Of a stretch of DNA of 57,534 nucleotides, positions 1,432-10,735 are shown piece after piece. The stretch's first letter is position 1, and the number at the start of each line of letters is the position of its first letter. The notes beneath the pieces were generated by a model. The model searched no databases. It was not told the DNA's origin and was given only the letters and a program-made list of their open reading frames with translations. Position numbers and translations under genes: made by a program. Source of the stretch: Bdellovibrionales bacterium. Its GTDB lineage: Bacteria; Bdellovibrionota; Bdellovibrionia; Bdellovibrionales; UBA1609. Where the stretch lies: NCBI GenBank assembly GCA_022450595.1, contig JAKUPT010000012.1, positions 1-57,534 of the forward strand. Direction: 5' to 3'.

Positions 1432-3828
1432 ATGAAAAAAATCATCGCCCTTATAATTATACTCATCATTTTAATCATTAGTTTTTTACTAGTGATTTTT
1501 AAACCTTTTGAAACTAATTATATGAAAAAAAACGCTGGCGACATTATTCCCGTAAAAGATGAGTTCACCACTAAAATCAAACCCATATTTGATTCAAAGT
1601 GTGTCGCCTGTCACTCTTGTTACAATTCTCCTTGTCAGTTAAATTTGACTTCCTATGAAGGACTTATTCGCGGGGCTCACAAAACAGACATTTATGACTT
1701 TTCAAAACTCAAACCCAGAAAACCCACAAGACTTTACATCGATGCCCACTCTAAAGCGCAGTGGCAAGAGCTTGGATTTTACCCTGTGGTTGAACAAAAA
1801 ACAGAGTCTTCGCTTTTAAGTTATTACATTTCAAAAATTCCTGGTATTGAATCTAAAAAACAAGAAAGCTACAATTCTGAAGAGCAAAGATTCTGCATGA
1901 ATGATATTAATCCTATTCAGGAGCAAGGCTTAAAGCTGACCAATTCGGCAGCAAGAATGCCCTATGGCTTCCCTGCGCTGAATGAAAAAGAGATTTCTAC
2001 AATTAACACTTGGATTAAAAAAGGTGCTCCTGGGCCAAGTCTTCAAAAAATGGAAAGCTCTATTTTAAATCATCCAGAGCTTGCGCCAAAAATTAATAAA
2101 TTAGAAACACTTTTTAATCAAAAAACTCTAAAAGCACAAATTGCTAGCCGCTATTTGTATGAACACTTGTTTTTAGCCCATATATATTTTCAGTCAGCTC
2201 CAAATGTGTTTTTTAGATTGGTGCGCTCAAAAACTCCGACCAATAAGATTGAAGAGATTGGCACTACTTATCCTTTTGACGATCCCCAACAAAAGTTTTA
2301 TTACCGCTTGCGTCCGGTCACCAACACCATAACCCATAAAAGCCATATTCCCTTTATGGTGTCCACTGACAAGCTCAAGCGATGGAAGCAAGAATTCTAC
2401 AACACGCCATGGGACAACGTGCCTGAAACAATGCCAGCCTATGACGCTAAGGGCTCCAACCCTTTTGAAACATTTAAAAGCATACCGACAAAAACTCGTT
2501 ACAGATTTTTTCTTGAAAATACGCACTACCACATTATGACTTTTATCAAAGGCCCTGTGTGCCGAGGGCAAACGGCTTTAAATGTTATTAACGATCACTT
2601 TTGGGTGTTTTTTATTGATCCGGAAAAAGACGCTCTTTCTAACTCACCTGAACTTTACCAGAAAGTGGCCAAAGACATGCAAATGCCCGCAGCCCTTGAT
2701 GGCAACTTTGACCCCTTTATTGATTTTAGAAAAAAGTATTGGAATGCCATTGAGCTAAAATTTAAATCTTTAGAAAAACAAAATGATCCCATCAATAAAG
2801 ACTGGTTTTGGTACGGAGATCAACAAGACACCAATGCTTTACTCACGGTTTACCGACACTTTGACAGTGCTATGGTTTTTAAAGGCCTTAGAGGGAAAAT
2901 GCCAAAGACTATTTGGCTTTTGGACTACCATGTATTTGAGTCCATTTATTATAACCTAACTGCCGGCTATAATGTATTTGGCCCCTTACTGCACCAACTT
3001 CAATCTCGTCTTTATATGGAAATTTCAAGAATTGCCTCTGAAGATCTATTTATAAGTCTTTTGCCTAAAGAAAAAAGAGCCCAAGTTCGTACAGAGTGGA
3101 ACACTCCTGTGCCAGATAAAAACTCGACTCTACTGAAGCGACTGTCGGATCTTGTCAGTGAAAACGTTAAACAAAAGATGCAGTTTGATTACCCCTATCA
3201 AGGGGAAAACCTCTCCACTGCATTTAATTTCAGCCAACAAGACTTCAAAACCCAGTGGTTTAATTCCGTGGTGTTAAAAAATTACTCCATAGAACAAATT
3301 AACTCTGAAAATGATATTTCCCCACAGACAAAAGCTTCAAAAGAAGAGTTTAACTCTTTAGGGGTCAAATCTGGCCTTCATTTAAAACACCACAGGTTGC
3401 TGTCACCTTTGGTGGCACTGCCCTCATCCGTGATACAACACCTTCCAGACACACTTCTGCTTCGAAACACCGACACCCAAGAGGCATACACGTTGATTCA
3501 CAACAAATCCCATTACAATGTGTCGATGTTGTTTTTTGAAAATGACCGAAGACAACCCGACAAAGACGACTTAGATATTTTGCCAGGTGTTGCCACCTCT
3601 TATGCCAACCTTTACTTGGTGCTCAATGATAAATCGATAATGCAGCTGGCTCAAAAACTTAAAAATGCGAAAAACAAACCCGAGGTGAACTCCATTCTCA
3701 AAGAATACGCGCTTTTACGAACAAGTAAAAACTTTTGGAAACACCATCGCTGGTTTTCAGAGCAAAGCTCTAGAGCTGAAACCAATGAGTCGGGCTGGCT
3801 CGACCTCAATCGCTATTTAAATTTTTAA
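1432..3828 (+). CDS. cti: Fatty acid cis/trans isomerase (haem-c type)
   Basis: Periplasmic enzyme that converts cis-unsaturated fatty acids of membrane lipids to trans, a fast response to solvent or heat that stiffens the membrane; known from Pseudomonas and Vibrio. The 798-residue protein has an N-terminal hydrophobic export/anchor segment (residues ~3-24), then a haem-c motif CVACH at residues 57-61 inside CVACHSCYNSPCQLNL, the family signature. Further conserved stretches are RPTRLYIDAH-like (PRKPTRLYIDAH), RMPYGFPAL and the WYGDQQDTNALLTVYRH region. The length fits the family. The start is supported by AAGGA seven bases upstream of the ATG. It is monocistronic, and its stop overlaps the convergent AbiEii stop by 4 bp. 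Confident by motif and full-length similarity; action on self versus prey lipids is unknown. Confidence 0.9.
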   Translation: MKKIIALIIILIILIISFLLVIFKPFETNYMKKNAGDIIPVKDEFTTKIKPIFDSKCVACHSCYNSPCQLNLTSYEGLIRGAHKTDIYDFSKLKPRKPTRLYIDAHSKAQWQELGFYPVVEQKTESSLLSYYISKIPGIESKKQESYNSEEQRFCMNDINPIQEQGLKLTNSAARMPYGFPALNEKEISTINTWIKKGAPGPSLQKMESSILNHPELAPKINKLETLFNQKTLKAQIASRYLYEHLFLAHIYFQSAPNVFFRLVRSKTPTNKIEEIGTTYPFDDPQQKFYYRLRPVTNTITHKSHIPFMVSTDKLKRWKQEFYNTPWDNVPETMPAYDAKGSNPFETFKSIPTKTRYRFFLENTHYHIMTFIKGPVCRGQTALNVINDHFWVFFIDPEKDALSNSPELYQKVAKDMQMPAALDGNFDPFIDFRKKYWNAIELKFKSLEKQNDPINKDWFWYGDQQDTNALLTVYRHFDSAMVFKGLRGKMPKTIWLLDYHVFESIYYNLTAGYNVFGPLLHQLQSRLYMEISRIASEDLFISLLPKEKRAQVRTEWNTPVPDKNSTLLKRLSDLVSENVKQKMQFDYPYQGENLSTAFNFSQQDFKTQWFNSVVLKNYSIEQINSENDISPQTKASKEEFNSLGVKSGLHLKHHRLLSPLVALPSSVIQHLPDTLLLRNTDTQEAYTLIHNKSHYNVSMLFFENDRRQPDKDDLDILPGVATSYANLYLVLNDKSIMQLAQKLKNAKNKPEVNSILKEYALLRTSKNFWKHHRWFSEQSSRAETNESGWLDLNRYLNF

Positions 3829-4691
3829 AATAAGTGTGAACATATATTTAAAAAATACTTTTGATTCCATAAGGTTAAGGACTGTTGCTCTCTAGATTTT
3901 AAAAATGGAGCCACGTCTTTTTTAGCATCATCGAAGTTAACCGTTTTAAATTTTTCAGTTAATAATTTTTTTAACTCTTTTTTAGTAAAATTTTTGTCTG
4001 AAGGCCAATCGCCACTTTGAACTAAGCGACTTTTTAAATGCTCAAGATTGGGTTGAACTTTTTGACCTATATACCAGATTAAATCATAATAATCTCTACC
4101 CTTAACTCTAGTTTTCCATTTACGTGCAAGTATTGCATGCAACTTTCCAGCAAACAAACAGTCCAATGTCATGGTTTTTACTTGAAAGGGAATTGGTCTT
4201 AAAAGGTTTTTCATTTCTGTTTTAAAATTCATAGGAGGATCTGTGTCTACTTCAATTTTTATCTTTAAAATTTCATTTGATAGTGTGTGTTGCACAATTG
4301 AATCTGGAGCTTTTATTTTAATAAATTGAATTTTTGTATCACTTTTTACAAAGGCACTTTCAATTTGAGACTTCATTTTTTTCTTTTTTTTCTCCACATT
4401 AACTTCAAAACCAAATGCTAATAGCTCTTCTTCAATGGCTTTTAAGTGTGGACTCAAATCAAATTTTGAATCTGGCTTGATAAGAGTAAAGTCCATGTCC
4501 TCTGAAAAACGATTCAGTCCATAAAGGATTCTTAACGAGGTTCCTCCATAAAAAGCCGCGTATTCATAAAACTTGGACCGCCACAAACCAAGTAGTGACA
4601 CCTCTTGAATAATTTCTTTTAAAGCATTGCTATAATCAAACTTGGTTTTACAATCGTACTCTGAGAGCATATCAGTTATAGCTTTATCCAT
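3825..4691 (-). CDS. AbiEii/AbiGii-family nucleotidyltransferase toxin
   Basis: Toxin half of a type IV (AbiE) toxin-antitoxin/abortive-infection pair. These proteins are DNA polymerase beta-like nucleotidyltransferases; characterised relatives modify tRNA or bind GTP and arrest growth. Visible family motifs: YGGTSLRILYGLNRFSEDMDF (nucleotide-binding GGTS and the SxDxD metal site), and downstream AGKLHAILARK followed by GRDYYDL, the conserved Lys and Asp motifs III/IV. I start it at the ATG at 4691, which has GAGGAG seven bases upstream, rather than the in-frame TTG at 4706. It then overlaps the end of the AbiEi gene by 8 bp (ATGGATAA), so the two are translationally coupled. 288 residues, normal for the family. 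It converges on cti with overlapping stops. Confidence 0.88.
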   Translation of the reverse strand: MDKAITDMLSEYDCKTKFDYSNALKEIIQEVSLLGLWRSKFYEYAAFYGGTSLRILYGLNRFSEDMDFTLIKPDSKFDLSPHLKAIEEELLAFGFEVNVEKKKKKMKSQIESAFVKSDTKIQFIKIKAPDSIVQHTLSNEILKIKIEVDTDPPMNFKTEMKNLLRPIPFQVKTMTLDCLFAGKLHAILARKWKTRVKGRDYYDLIWYIGQKVQPNLEHLKSRLVQSGDWPSDKNFTKKELKKLLTEKFKTVNFDDAKKDVAPFLKSREQQSLTLWNQKYFLNICSHLF

Positions 4692-5331
4692 TTTGTTGCT
4701 CCTCAATTTTTGATTCCATATAAATTAAAAATTCTAGACACAATGGATGATTATAATGTTGCACTAGGCTTCTTAATGAGCTTAGTTTTATTTGTTTTAT
4801 AAGTTCTGATTCATCTATCCGCAGATCCTCTAAAACATCGATAAATCGCGCCTTTGTTTTTTTACTCAAACTCAATGTCATATAATCTATTAATGCTTTT
4901 TCAGGGCTTGCCATAAAAATATGGTCGCCATCGGCTTGTTTTTCCAATAACACCGCAAGTTTATATCTATCTTTATTTAAATACCTGTAGGTATAAACCC
5001 CTACAGGCGTATTAAATTCTTTATTTTTTTTACTTGTAACGGACTGGATTGTTTCTACTCTTTCAGGAATTAAACCCCAATAAGAAAGTGCTGTTTCAAA
5101 AGATATATAAGATGGACCATAAATAAGGTTAGCTAACAATAGCGGGTTATAGCTTTTGGTTTCATCTGGTTGAATAACATATAAACCTTTTTTTATTCTT
5201 ACTATTTGTTTCGACTTTAAAAGTTCATTAATTTTTTGCAGTGGCGCCTTATAATTCTCTAAAGCCACCAGTAAACTTTGGTAGCTAAACTCCTCACGGC
5301 CAATTGATTTTCTAAGACTGTGTTTATCCAT
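4684..5331 (-). CDS. AbiEi-family antitoxin / transcriptional repressor
   Basis: First gene of the AbiE pair: a 215-residue antitoxin that in known systems has an N-terminal winged-helix domain binding inverted repeats in its own promoter and a C-terminal domain needed to counter the toxin without stable contact. Here residues ~10-55 look like the winged helix (INELLKSKQIVRIKKGLYVI), followed by the AbiEi core (GPSYISFETALSYWGLIPE and a SPEKALIDY motif). It is followed with 8-bp overlap by the AbiEii toxin. Two near-identical palindromes lie immediately upstream of its ATG, which strongly suggests autorepression. The start has a modest GGATGG ribosome site that itself lies at the edge of the first palindrome. 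Confidence 0.87.
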   Translation of the reverse strand: MDKHSLRKSIGREEFSYQSLLVALENYKAPLQKINELLKSKQIVRIKKGLYVIQPDETKSYNPLLLANLIYGPSYISFETALSYWGLIPERVETIQSVTSKKNKEFNTPVGVYTYRYLNKDRYKLAVLLEKQADGDHIFMASPEKALIDYMTLSLSKKTKARFIDVLEDLRIDESELIKQIKLSSLRSLVQHYNHPLCLEFLIYMESKIEEQQNG

Positions 5332-5509: not shown

Positions 5510-5618
5510 GCCTGGTCGGGTCCTATACAATGAGGGCTCTTGCGAACTCCGCCAGGTCCGGAAGGAAGCAACGGTAGCTTGAGTGTCATGTGATATAGGG
5601 TGCCCGGCCACTTTTTTT
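5510..5618 (+). ncRNA. ffs: Signal recognition particle RNA, small bacterial type (4.5S)
   Basis: RNA scaffold of the signal recognition particle that binds Ffh and targets membrane proteins. The hallmark apical sequence GCCAGGTCCGGAAGGAAGCA lies at 5551-5570. The distal stem pairs GGTCGGG (5514-5520) with CCCGGCC (5603-5609), continuing through TCCTATA/TATAGGG. A T-run at 5612-5618 follows directly as terminator. Length of about 100 nt fits the Alu-less type. It lies ~90 bp upstream of dnaX in the order SRP RNA-dnaX-ybaB-recR, also seen in Bacillus. Exact 5' end is estimated from the pairing. Confidence 0.93.
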
Positions 5619-5706: not shown

Positions 5707-7713
5707 ATGTCCTATCAGGTGATAGCTCGAAAATGGAGACCTAAAGGCTTTGAGGAGCTGGTTGGGCAGGGCCATATTAGCCAAACGCTATTAAATGCCC
5801 TTCAAAACAACCGCCTGCCTCACGCCCTGCTATTCACCGGCCCAAGAGGAACAGGAAAAACCTCCTCGGCTCGAATTTTAGCCAAATCCCTTCGCTGCCC
5901 CAATGCCAAAAACTTTGTGCCCTGCCTTGAGTGCAACGAGTGTTTAGACATTTCCAGTGGCCGCAGTGTGAATGTGATTGAAATTGATGGAGCCTCAAAC
6001 AACGGGGTGGAAGCCATTAGAGAGCTTAGAGACAGCGTGGGCTACATGCCGGCCTCTGGGCACTACAAGGTTTATATTATAGATGAAGTGCATATGCTCT
6101 CCACCAGTGCCTTCAACGCTTTGTTAAAGACCCTTGAGGAGCCTCCAGAGCATGTGGTGTTTATTATGGCCACAACTGAGGTGCATAAAATACCCAACAC
6201 GATTTTGTCTCGTTGCCAGCGCTTTGATTTTAGAAGGATTCCTTTAAAACTGATCACCGAAAGACTGCAAAGTATCTGTAAAGCCGAAGGCCTTAAAGTT
6301 GACGATGAAGCCCTATGGGCTGTGGCCCGTCAAGGTGATGGCTCCATGAGGGACTCCCAAAGCCTTCTGGATCAAGTGATCACTTTTAGTAAAGACCACC
6401 TAACTTTAAAAAAAGTGACTGAAGTTTTAGGACTCACTGAGCGCAGTTTGATTTTAGAGGCCATGCAGTCCATCTGCCATAAAAAGTCAGACCTAGCTTT
6501 AGATGTTGTCGAAAAAGTCTTTAGCTCTGGTACTGACGCCCAACTGTTTGCCAAAGACTTACTGGAAGAAATTCGTCACATGATGTTTGCCAAAATGGCG
6601 CCATCTCCTGAAGAAGCGGCAAAGCTATTAGACTTACCGGATTTTGAAATTGAAGAGCTTCGAGGGCTGGCTCAAAACATGAGTGCTGAAGATATACATA
6701 TGCTTTTTGATATGTGCCTTAAAGGCGTTCAAGATCTCAGCCGCAGTCAAGACAGCCAAATCATTTTAGAAATGATGCTAATCAGACTCTCCCAGGCCCC
6801 AAAAATTGAAGAGCTCAAAACTTTGCTCGGCCAGAGTGAAAAAAAAAAGCCTAAATTAAACACGGATTCACAGAGAAGCTCTACAAACTCACAAACAAGT
6901 TCATCTGCATCTGAGATAAAAACACCCCAAAAACAACAAGTATCAGCACAATCAAAGGCCTCTGAACAGGCAAACTCTTCACAAAGCATTTCTCAGACTC
7001 AAGAAAAGCCTCAACATCAACAAGCCGGTTCTGCTCAAAATGTTTCTCAGGAACCAACAAAACCTCAAGGCCAAGGCTCTTCAAAAGACAGCCCTAGCAC
7101 ACAAGCTGACAACAAAAATCAAATCAATACAGCTAACACTCAACCTGAAGAAAAATCTCAAAATTTTAGCCAAAACCCTCAGAGTTTTTCACAGGAAGAG
7201 CCCCCTCCGCCTCCAACTGAAGAACCAAAACAAAGCCTTAACGTGTTGAAATCTAAGAAAAAACCAAAAACTAAGTTCAAAAAACTAAAAACTCCCCTAG
7301 AAACCAAACAGCCCCTTGAGGAGCACTGGTATGAGGTGGTGTCTGAGGTCAAAAAGTATCAACAAATTTTAGGCGCAGAGCTTGAAAATGTGTTTTTAGA
7401 CTCTTGCAGCCAAACTGAGGTGACCCTTTCCATCCCCGCTAAGGCCAAATTTTTATGGGACCGTTTTAACGACCCTGAGTACCAAAAACGTATAAATAAG
7501 GTGTTTAAAACTTTCTGGGGGATGGAATTTGAAATTAAGGTGGTTCAGGACAAAGACAAAAAAAGTTCTGAACTGACTCCAAAAGCCATGCATCGAAAAA
7601 AAATAGATGCTAAAAATCAAGAGACAAGAAAGCTTGTGGAAGATCACCCGATGGTCAAACAAGCGCATAAATTGTTTAAAACAGAAATTAAATCAATCAA
7701 GGAGCTACCATGA
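5707..7713 (+). CDS. dnaX: DNA polymerase III subunits gamma and tau
   Basis: ATPase core of the clamp loader that opens and loads the beta clamp; tau also joins polymerase cores and helicase. 668 residues. Walker A GPRGTGKTS at 45-53, zinc-binding cysteines C64, C73, C76, C79, Walker B IIDEVH at 124-129, and the SRC sensor near 168-170. Domain III ends near residue 370. A long Q/S/P-rich low-complexity linker follows (~380-520), then a C-terminal tau domain (~535-660). An A10 run at 6839-6848 sits exactly at the domain III/linker junction (see separate entry). The ATG has an AGGGAG ribosome site. The stop overlaps ybaB by 4 bp (ATGA), indicating an operon with ybaB, recR and mglA. Confidence 0.97.
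   Translation: MSYQVIARKWRPKGFEELVGQGHISQTLLNALQNNRLPHALLFTGPRGTGKTSSARILAKSLRCPNAKNFVPCLECNECLDISSGRSVNVIEIDGASNNGVEAIRELRDSVGYMPASGHYKVYIIDEVHMLSTSAFNALLKTLEEPPEHVVFIMATTEVHKIPNTILSRCQRFDFRRIPLKLITERLQSICKAEGLKVDDEALWAVARQGDGSMRDSQSLLDQVITFSKDHLTLKKVTEVLGLTERSLILEAMQSICHKKSDLALDVVEKVFSSGTDAQLFAKDLLEEIRHMMFAKMAPSPEEAAKLLDLPDFEIEELRGLAQNMSAEDIHMLFDMCLKGVQDLSRSQDSQIILEMMLIRLSQAPKIEELKTLLGQSEKKKPKLNTDSQRSSTNSQTSSSASEIKTPQKQQVSAQSKASEQANSSQSISQTQEKPQHQQAGSAQNVSQEPTKPQGQGSSKDSPSTQADNKNQINTANTQPEEKSQNFSQNPQSFSQEEPPPPPTEEPKQSLNVLKSKKKPKTKFKKLKTPLETKQPLEEHWYEVVSEVKKYQQILGAELENVFLDSCSQTEVTLSIPAKAKFLWDRFNDPEYQKRINKVFKTFWGMEFEIKVVQDKDKKSSELTPKAMHRKKIDAKNQETRKLVEDHPMVKQAHKLFKTEIKSIKELP
6839..6854 (+). 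other. Predicted dnaX slippery site producing a gamma-like short form
   Basis: Ten A residues followed by G read in frame as GAA AAA AAA AAG, containing the A AAA AAG heptamer used for -1 frameshifting in E. coli dnaX. A -1 shift (or one extra A in the mRNA) leads to GCC then TAA at 6852-6854. Loss of one A also meets a stop, TAA at 6857-6859. The -1 product would be ~382 residues, ending right after the clamp-loader ATPase/domain III, as in gamma subunits. I see no clear stimulatory stem-loop downstream. Inference from sequence and the E. coli/Thermus precedents. Confidence 0.6.
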
Positions 7714-8057: not shown

Positions 8058-8678
8058 GTGCTAAAAGATGTTCCATCATTTGACAAATTAGTTCATGAGC
8101 TAGGCAAGCTTCCAGGCATTGGGCATAAAACGGCTCAGCGTCTGGCTTACTATGTTTTAAGATCTCCTAGCGAGTATAGCAGTGAGCTTTCTGAAGCACT
8201 CCACTCTGTTAAGGCCTCAGTCAAAGAGTGCCCCACTTGCTTTTCTTACACCGAAAACGAAGATCAGTGTAAACTTTGTGCGAGTGATAGTCGTGATGAC
8301 TCTGTTTTGTGTGTGGTGGAAGAGCCTGCAGACATCTCAAGAATTGAGTCCTCTGGAGCTTTTAATGGCAGATACCATGTGCTGCACGGAGCTTTATCCC
8401 CGCTTGACGGAATCACTCCCAGTGACATTCGTATTCAGCCTTTAATGGACAAGATCCAAAAAGGTATTAACAGTCAAGGACCAGTCATTGAAGAGGTCAT
8501 ACTTGCACTTGACGCTGATTTAGAAGGTGACACCACCGTACTTTATCTTGCTAAAATACTAAGTGAAAAGGGCATTAAAAGCTCTCGCATCGCCCATGGG
8601 GTTCCCATCGGTGGCGACATAGACTACATTGATAACAGAACACTAGAACGCGCATTAGAAAACCGGGTGCAACTATAA
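8058..8678 (+). CDS. recR: Recombination mediator protein RecR
   Basis: Works with RecO (and RecF) to load RecA onto SSB-coated single-stranded DNA at gaps. 206 residues. Helix-hairpin-helix LPGIGHKTAQRLA at 18-30, a C4 zinc finger C58, C61, C71, C74, then a Toprim domain with EVILALDADLEGD and a C-terminal Walker-B-like region containing GVPIGGDIDY. The start is a GTG 18 bp after the ybaB stop. The stop TAA shares one base with the mglA ATG (TAATG), so mglA is likely translated by coupling. Confidence 0.96.
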   Translation: MLKDVPSFDKLVHELGKLPGIGHKTAQRLAYYVLRSPSEYSSELSEALHSVKASVKECPTCFSYTENEDQCKLCASDSRDDSVLCVVEEPADISRIESSGAFNGRYHVLHGALSPLDGITPSDIRIQPLMDKIQKGINSQGPVIEEVILALDADLEGDTTVLYLAKILSEKGIKSSRIAHGVPIGGDIDYIDNRTLERALENRVQL

Positions 8679-9271
8679 TGTCATTAATTAACTACAACGC
8701 CAAAGAAATCCACTGCAAGATTGTTTACTACGGCCCCTCGCTGGGTGGAAAAACCACCAACATGCAATGGCTGTATCAAAAAGCCAACTCCGACGACAAA
8801 TCGGAGATGTTCCAACTTCCCACCGAAGTGGAACGCACCATGTTTTTTGACTTTCTTCCACTAGAAGTAGGAGACATTCGTGGCTTTAAAACAAGATTCC
8901 ACGTTTACACCGTTCCCGGCCAAGTCGTGTACGACGCCAGCCGAAAACTGATTCTTAAAAACTTAGACGGTGTGATTTTTGTCGCCGACTCTCAACAAGA
9001 GCGCATGGAAGAAAACATTCAATCCATGAAAAACCTTGAGAACAATCTTTCAAAATTGGGCTTCGACATTAAAGAGATCCCCATGGTCATCCAGTACAAC
9101 AAACGCGATTTACCTAACGCACTTCCTTTAGAAGAGATGCGCACAGCTTTAAACCATCACAACAAACCTGAGTTTGAGGGCACAGCCCACCAAGGTGGCG
9201 GCGTGTTCGAAGCTTTTAAAACGGTGTCTAAATCCATTGTTTCCGTCCTCAAAGGCGGAGCACTTTCTTAA
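8678..9271 (+). CDS. mglA: MglA-family small GTPase (cell polarity)
   Basis: Ras-like GTPase that marks the leading pole; in Myxococcus it controls gliding reversals, and in Bdellovibrio it acts with RomR in prey invasion. 197 residues. P-loop GPSLGGKTTN at 19-28 (the MglA-type variant), switch I region with ERTMFFDF around 53-60, switch II TVPGQ at 78-82, and the guanine-specificity motif NKRD at 141-144. It is the last gene of the dnaX-ybaB-recR-mglA run, followed by a long hairpin repeat. No MglB-type GAP gene is seen nearby. Confidence 0.93.
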   Translation: MSLINYNAKEIHCKIVYYGPSLGGKTTNMQWLYQKANSDDKSEMFQLPTEVERTMFFDFLPLEVGDIRGFKTRFHVYTVPGQVVYDASRKLILKNLDGVIFVADSQQERMEENIQSMKNLENNLSKLGFDIKEIPMVIQYNKRDLPNALPLEEMRTALNHHNKPEFEGTAHQGGGVFEAFKTVSKSIVSVLKGGALS

Positions 9272-9607: not shown

Positions 9608-9623
9608 ATGCAGTATAGTGCAT
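9608..9623 (+). promoter_or_regulatory. Operator-like near-palindrome upstream of HTH-Fic
   Basis: ATGCAGTATAGTGCAT, a near-perfect palindrome and one mismatch pair away from the perfect one at 9640-9655. Centres are 32 bp apart, about three helical turns. Likely a binding site for the downstream HTH protein. Confidence 0.6.
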
Positions 9624-9639
9624 TTTATTTTGATTTATT

Positions 9640-9655
9640 ATGCATTATAATGCAT
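9640..9655 (+). promoter_or_regulatory. Perfect palindromic operator overlapping a -10 box
   Basis: ATGCATTATAATGCAT is a perfect 16-bp palindrome containing TATAAT (9646-9651), a consensus -10 element 13 bp before the ATG at 9665. A repressor bound here would block the promoter. The short distance implies a leaderless or nearly leaderless mRNA. Confidence 0.62.
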
Positions 9656-9664
9656 AATGAATAT

Positions 9665-10138
9665 ATGAAAACATCAAAAAGCAAAGCTCTAGCTCAAAAA
9701 AGTATCATTGATCAAAAGCTTAAGGGCTGGATGAAACTAAAAGAAGATATGGCACCCCCATCAGGATGGATTAAAGCCATTCGTGGAGCCCTAGGCTTGT
9801 CCACAGGACAGTTAGCTAAAATAGTAGGAGTTAACCAAACCACAGTTTTAAAGTCTGAGGAAAGAGAAGCCCTTGGCAACATTACTTTATCTAAACTGAA
9901 TGAGTTAGCTCAAGCTATGGATTGTAAGCTGATTTATGCAGTTGTACCTAACAACGATCATAACAGCCTTGATGATATATTAAACTTAAGAGCTGAGATG
10001 TTGGCTGATCAAATGCTTAGCGATGTTGAACACAGCATGAGCTTGGAAAAACAAGACGTTTCATTTAACAAAGATAAGAGAGATAGACTTATTAAAGAGT
10101 TAAAAGAAAACTTAGATAAAAGGCTCTGGGAGGTTTAA
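9665..10138 (+). CDS. HTH antitoxin-like regulator, 'mobile mystery protein A' family
   Basis: 157-residue Xre-type helix-turn-helix protein of the family named mobile mystery protein A, found with a Fic partner on plasmids and mobile regions. Signature MAPPSGWIKAIRGALGLSTG lies just before the HTH (LAKIVGVNQTTVLKSEERE, about residues 48-70), then ITLSKLNELAQAMDCKLIYAVVP, a pattern typical of the family. Probable repressor and antitoxin of the Fic protein 3 bp downstream. I start it at 9665, not at the longer ATG at 9608, because the extra stretch is occupied by two palindromic operators and a TATAAT box. No clear Shine-Dalgarno is visible, fitting a leaderless message. Family call confident; antitoxin role inferred. 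Confidence 0.85.
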   Translation: MKTSKSKALAQKSIIDQKLKGWMKLKEDMAPPSGWIKAIRGALGLSTGQLAKIVGVNQTTVLKSEEREALGNITLSKLNELAQAMDCKLIYAVVPNNDHNSLDDILNLRAEMLADQMLSDVEHSMSLEKQDVSFNKDKRDRLIKELKENLDKRLWEV

Positions 10139-10141
10139 ACC

Positions 10142-10735
10142 ATGAAATTTAACCTTCCAACTGGCGCTACTTCTCTTGATCCTAATGAAATAAAAGATTT
10201 AATTCCTACCTATATAAATAAACAAGATGAGCTTAACCAACTTGAAAGTAGTAATATACTAGAGGCCGTTCAATGGGCTTATTCTAAAAGAAGTATTAAT
10301 CCATTAGACTACTCTTTTATATTAGAACTTCATAAAAGAATGTTTAAAGATGTTTGGAAGTGGGCTGGGAAACCAAGAACCACTGAAAAAAATATTGGAG
10401 TACACTGGCAACAAATAAGTTCTCAAGTTTTTCAATTGATTAAAAATATAGAATATTGGATTGATAATGAAGTTTATAATTTTGATGAAGTCGCTGTTCG
10501 ATTTCACCATGGGTTAGTTAAAATTCATATATTTCCTAATGGAAATGGACGCCACGCCAGACTGATAACAAATTTATTACTAAGATTTAATGATAAAGAT
10601 GAATTTAGTTGGGGGCGAAACAGCTCATCAGATTCAATTGATTTTGATAGTACTATAAGAAAAAAATATATTAGTTCTCTTAAAAACGCCGACAATAACA
10701 ATTTTAAAGATTTGCTGTCATTTGTGCGAAGTTAA
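10142..10735 (+). CDS. Fic/DOC-family protein, 'mobile mystery protein B'
   Basis: 197-residue Fic-domain protein; such enzymes usually transfer AMP or another nucleotide group to a target hydroxyl. Fic core motif HIFPNGNGRHAR at residues 129-140 keeps the catalytic His and the GNGR anion-binding loop, but has Ile where Pro is usual after His. N-terminal SNILEA (S37-x3-E41) resembles the inhibitory (S/T)xxxE(G/N) helix of self-inhibited Fic proteins, with Ala in place of Gly/Asn. N-terminus MKFNLPTGATSLDPNE and the TTEKNIGVHWQQI region match mobile mystery protein B. The ribosome site GGGAGG lies before the ATG, 3 bp after the HTH gene, so the two form one operon. Likely toxin of the pair; target unknown. 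Confidence 0.87.
   Translation: MKFNLPTGATSLDPNEIKDLIPTYINKQDELNQLESSNILEAVQWAYSKRSINPLDYSFILELHKRMFKDVWKWAGKPRTTEKNIGVHWQQISSQVFQLIKNIEYWIDNEVYNFDEVAVRFHHGLVKIHIFPNGNGRHARLITNLLLRFNDKDEFSWGRNSSSDSIDFDSTIRKKYISSLKNADNNNFKDLLSFVRS

Follow-up and report, generated by a model that had tools for sequence, protein, structure and literature searches.

The clamp-loader gene dnaX considered here belongs to a Bdellovibrionales bacterium, an uncultured relative of Bdellovibrio, known from a draft assembly of 3.06 Mb in 156 contigs that is 97% complete (GCA_022450595.1). The stretch of DNA analysed, hereafter the window, comprises positions 1-57,534 of the forward strand of contig JAKUPT010000012.1. On its plus strand, dnaX occupies positions 5707-7713, stop codon included, as one open reading frame for the tau subunit of DNA polymerase III (668 amino acids, 75.3 kDa); the N-terminal part matches TIGR02397 (dnaX_nterm) with 463.9 bits, and the product aligns with the gamma/tau chains of E. 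coli at E=6e-78. Directly upstream lies a small SRP RNA gene of the 4.5S type (5514-5612; Rfam RF00169, 67.8 bits). Genes named ybaB and recR by appearance are found downstream, and recR is followed by a gene for a small Ras/Arf-like GTPase (8678-9271; PF00025), MglA-like by appearance.

Within dnaX, positions 6839-6848 of the plus strand form a run of ten A's (A10) that is followed by G at 6849, in the context ...CAG AGT GAA AAA AAA AAG CCT AAA TTA AAC..., where the GAA codon occupies 6838-6840. The end of the run contributes to the heptamer A_AAA_AAG (6843-6849), which lies in the tau frame. The first-pass annotation had placed such a run, with its in-frame heptamer, at the end of domain III, and this description proved exact to the base: clamp-loader domain III (PF12169) spans residues 233-367 (6403-6807, plus strand), and the run corresponds to residues 378-381, about 11 residues beyond the end of that domain. 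An alignment in which query residue 361 pairs with E. coli residue 356 puts the run near E. coli residue 373; the E. coli shift itself occurs later in the linker, and E. coli gamma has about 430 residues. Both other reading frames close soon after the run, and edited translations reproduced the two stop codons that the annotation had named. An additional A, like a -1 shift of the ribosome, leads to TAA at 6852-6854 and in either case to the same product of 382 residues (42.8 kDa), with the C-terminus ...SEKKKA, while loss of one A leads to TAA at 6857-6859 and a product of 383 residues ending in ...SEKKSLN. The C-termini would therefore discriminate between mechanisms, ...KKSLN being unique to the loss of an A and ...KKKA common to the gain of an A and the -1 shift. 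The ATPase-only product of about 380 residues that had been anticipated is matched by these predicted lengths and, since the run lies so close behind domain III, the predicted short form would consist almost exactly of domains I-III. It would lack domain V with the polymerase-binding tail, which AlphaFold2 and Foldseek place at 7297-7710 on the plus strand. Both out-of-frame stops are equally near at 10 of the 288 codon positions (3.5%) in the C-terminal part of dnaX.

This arrangement shares features with both classical dnaX systems. Thermus makes gamma by slippage on a run of nine A's, behind which the two remaining frames both run into stops (PMC1088944; PMC5009743), and the window gene likewise carries a long A run, here of ten, in a single tau reading frame with the other two frames closed within a few codons. 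The site of Thermus thermophilus lies seven-eighths of the way through the gene, whereas the window run sits at 57% of the length of dnaX, just past domain III; slippage has been measured in T. thermophilus, whereas for the window gene it is predicted. The shift site of E. coli dnaX is the identical heptamer A_AAA_AAG (PMC5009743), and the window gene resembles it in the frame of the heptamer, in the early -1 stop and in a predicted short form with domains I-III. The likeness to E. coli and to Thermus at one and the same site, as first proposed, was thus upheld. E. coli dnaX adds two stimulators, a Shine-Dalgarno-like element and a hairpin, neither of which was found in the window gene: the best fold after the heptamer starts 14 nt downstream (z=-1.5) and no stem begins 2-11 nt downstream, no 4-mer of AGGAGGT occurs in the 22 nt upstream of the heptamer, and the run has no Rfam match. 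Folding, stem search and Rfam therefore agree with the earlier remark that a stimulatory hairpin is missing. The only lysine tRNA among the 30 examined of 33 tRNA matches in this 97%-complete draft is tRNA-Lys(UUU), which is also the only one in E. coli, whereas Thermus has two (PMC5009743). Other ways of obtaining two DnaX forms have been described. For two-ORF dnaX genes with an A10 run, transcriptional realignment has been proposed (Antonov et al. 2013, PMC3711429), but there slippage is needed for the long tau, which in the window is the direct product; Caulobacter produces a gamma form from tau by means of a protease (PMC5009743), as opposed to the slippage proposed here.

The whole 3.06-Mb assembly holds 96 runs of nine or more A's (A≥9) on either strand and four of ten or more (A≥10); the dnaX run is the only one of these four within a gene, the other three being intergenic. 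The 57.5-kb window has no other A≥9 run; dinucleotide shuffles of it yield about 20 matches. When 102 other genes of the same genome (99 kb, from fetched stretches) were compared with synonymous-codon shuffles, no depletion was seen up to eight A's (A≥8: 22 observed, 23.7 expected), whereas A≥9 runs numbered 1 against 9.2 expected and A≥10 runs 0 against 3.45. In the control genes of this genome avoidance thus sets in abruptly at nine A's, as would be expected of an organism prone to slippage of the Thermus type. Nine is the length at which selection against slippage has been reported for many bacteria (PMC1088944), and from the sharpness of the threshold we infer that runs of nine or more A's would slip in this organism as well. 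The run forms easily in the linker of dnaX, and the unusual part is that it has not been removed: synonymous shuffles of the window dnaX alone contain an A≥10 run in 40% of cases, a consequence of the many AAA codons for lysine in the linker. Scaling 3.45 runs per 99 kb to an estimated 2.7 Mb or so of coding sequence gives about 94 A≥10 runs expected without avoidance; the share of dnaX in these is 0.43, and the chance that the sole survivor should lie in dnaX is about 0.5%.

For comparison across the order, 90 Bdellovibrionales dnaX genes were read; the window genome is the sole member of its genus among the genomes compared, its relatives are available at the level of family and order, and the ATPase part of its dnaX shares 60-68% identity with the closest of their genes. 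At this distance the exact window site is mostly not conserved, being absent from most of the nearest available relatives. A≥9 runs nonetheless recur in dnaX past domain III, at the same or, more usually, at other positions, and many of them have no terminal AAG; none was found in the dnaX genes of Bdellovibrio (main f8 clade). On a DnaX tree with a poorly resolved base, from which the order of gains and losses is not readable, the presence of a run past domain III changes at least 14 times, so the run has been gained or lost many times. A≥10 runs on the sense strand occur in 15 of the 90 genes, against 11.5 by synonymous shuffles of whole genes, kinship being ignored. An earlier, density-based expectation of 0.6 for these 15 genes ignored their lysine content, overstated the excess and was replaced by the shuffles. 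With kinship again ignored, the part of the gene after domain III holds 32 A≥9 runs against 22.4 expected, a number reached in none of 300 shuffles, and the part before the end of domain III holds 2 against 1.9. Control loci around infB, ftsY and rnr were drawn from 30 related genomes picked partly for their dnaX runs, so that the unbiased dnaX count is that of all 90; in these controls, without regard to kinship, A≥9 runs number 20 against 97.8 expected and A≥10 runs 5 against 49.8. The lysine-rich IF-2 loci of the 30 genomes have 3 A≥9 runs against 58.8 expected, whereas the FtsY loci are undepleted (7 against 7.1), and long-A avoidance is therefore uneven among loci. Across Bdellovibrionales, dnaX is exempt from the depletion of A≥9 runs, and its excess of them is confined to the part past domain III. 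At six of the RNase R loci (L313, L314, L329, L330, L331, L334) the matches cross in-frame stop codons, which may reflect overrun of the match into flanking DNA or disrupted genes.

Past domain III, two places are over-represented. An early hot spot at aligned query positions 371-405 has A≥9 runs in 8 genomes, that of the window included, against 3.3 expected, and a late one at positions 610-626 has them in 9 genomes against 3.6, both counts lying above all 300 shuffles with kinship ignored; one genome (G007) has runs at both. The late-site runs of nine family members (L002, L008, L010, L019, L006, L125, L132, L140, L147) are A9 or A10, read as GAA AAA AAA A.., and align with positions 617-621. 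At the same site the window dnaX has seven A's (7558-7564), and here too both shifted frames close behind them (TGA 7569 and TGA 7574). In an AlphaFold2 model of domain V of the window dnaX (pLDDT 82.6), for which the best Foldseek matches are structures of the E. coli tau C-terminal domain (5fkv, 5fku and 2aya), the late site falls in the loop that leads from the final strand (79-84) to the two closing helices (95-135). Slippage at either the early or the late site would remove the polymerase-binding tail. The nearness of stops was also considered as an argument for programming and rejected outside the late hot spot: for the runs elsewhere, stops lie near 7 of 23 A≥9 runs and near 29 of 172 A6 or A7 runs, which is no significant difference (P=0.15). 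At the late hot spot, a conserved (L/M)(T/S)P motif in part dictates how near the stops are. In unrelated bacteria, the corresponding domain-V loop carries A10 in Megasphaera dnaX (L050, L051, L052, L055) and A9 in three further genes (L060, L061, L062), and in L050 and L052 the shifted frames, read by eye, stop soon past the run. This may point to convergence with the known late site of Thermus.

Taken together, the A10 run probably serves as a slip site at which a gamma-like clamp-loader subunit is made from the tau gene by slippage of RNA polymerase, possibly aided by -1 frameshifting. The polymerase would slip on the run and release mRNAs with one A extra or one A missing, and normal translation of these would meet a stop within a few codons, leaving a protein of 382-383 residues that keeps the ATPase and collar domains I-III, loses the linker and the polymerase-binding domain V and would presumably act in clamp loading. 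The original interpretation of A10 as a gamma-producing site is thereby partly supported, with the genome-wide and order-wide statistics adding to it. RNA polymerase is favoured as the agent because of the length of the run, the threshold at nine, the stops in both frames, the lack of ribosomal stimulators and the many runs of relatives that do not end in AAG. A -1 ribosomal shift may contribute to the 382-residue product, given the in-frame A_AAA_AAG and tRNA-Lys(UUU) as the only lysine tRNA found. That such a shift, E. coli-like, is the main route and the longer A run incidental is improbable: the -1 stop one codon after the heptamer and the single tRNA speak for it, but hairpin, Shine-Dalgarno match and Rfam match are all wanting, and many relatives have runs without a terminal AAG.

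A serious though rather unlikely rival is that the run slips without being programmed, truncated DnaX being harmless so that selection against A≥9 runs is relaxed past domain III. Tolerance of this kind agrees with an A≥10 count near the synonymous expectation for whole genes, with the poor conservation of the exact site and with run positions scattered over the linker; relaxed selection alone, however, predicts neither the excess of A≥9 runs past domain III nor the two over-represented places, kinship being ignored in both comparisons. That the run arose by chance in the lysine-rich linker, or is an error of the assembly, and has no effect either way, is very improbable. Linker composition alone often yields such runs and the assembly is fragmented into 156 contigs, but unless a miscount were a multiple of three, the conserved domain V would be thrown out of frame, and the abrupt onset of avoidance at nine A's implies that such runs have an effect. 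Tentatively, and with rather more doubt than attaches to polymerase slippage at the window site itself, selection in Bdellovibrionales may maintain the production of a tail-less DnaX without fixing the site of its production, the run being repeatedly lost and regained either after domain III or in the domain-V loop. If so, it is the loss of polymerase tethering that would matter, not the length of gamma.

Slippage in dnaX is already known from Thermus, and its ribosomal counterpart from E. coli, and the window seems to add a further case, with an order-wide pattern of shifting slip sites. It is debated whether bacteria other than E. coli and Thermus need gamma, and most other bacteria have been reviewed as lacking frameshift signatures in dnaX (PMC3290774). 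An order-wide escape of dnaX from run avoidance, at two places that both remove the tail, would speak for a wider usefulness of clamp-loader subunits without it, and the dnaX variants of Bdellovibrionales offer many natural constructs for testing such a subunit.

Two further arrangements in the window concern toxin-like genes. At 3825-5331 on the minus strand, an AbiEii-type nucleotidyltransferase toxin gene (PF08843) is preceded by a small gene that has no Pfam match and stands in the antitoxin position, the two being likely a type IV toxin-antitoxin pair. At 9608-10735 on the plus strand, a gene for an HTH regulator is followed by a Fic/DOC gene (PF02661) in a toxin-antitoxin-like arrangement.
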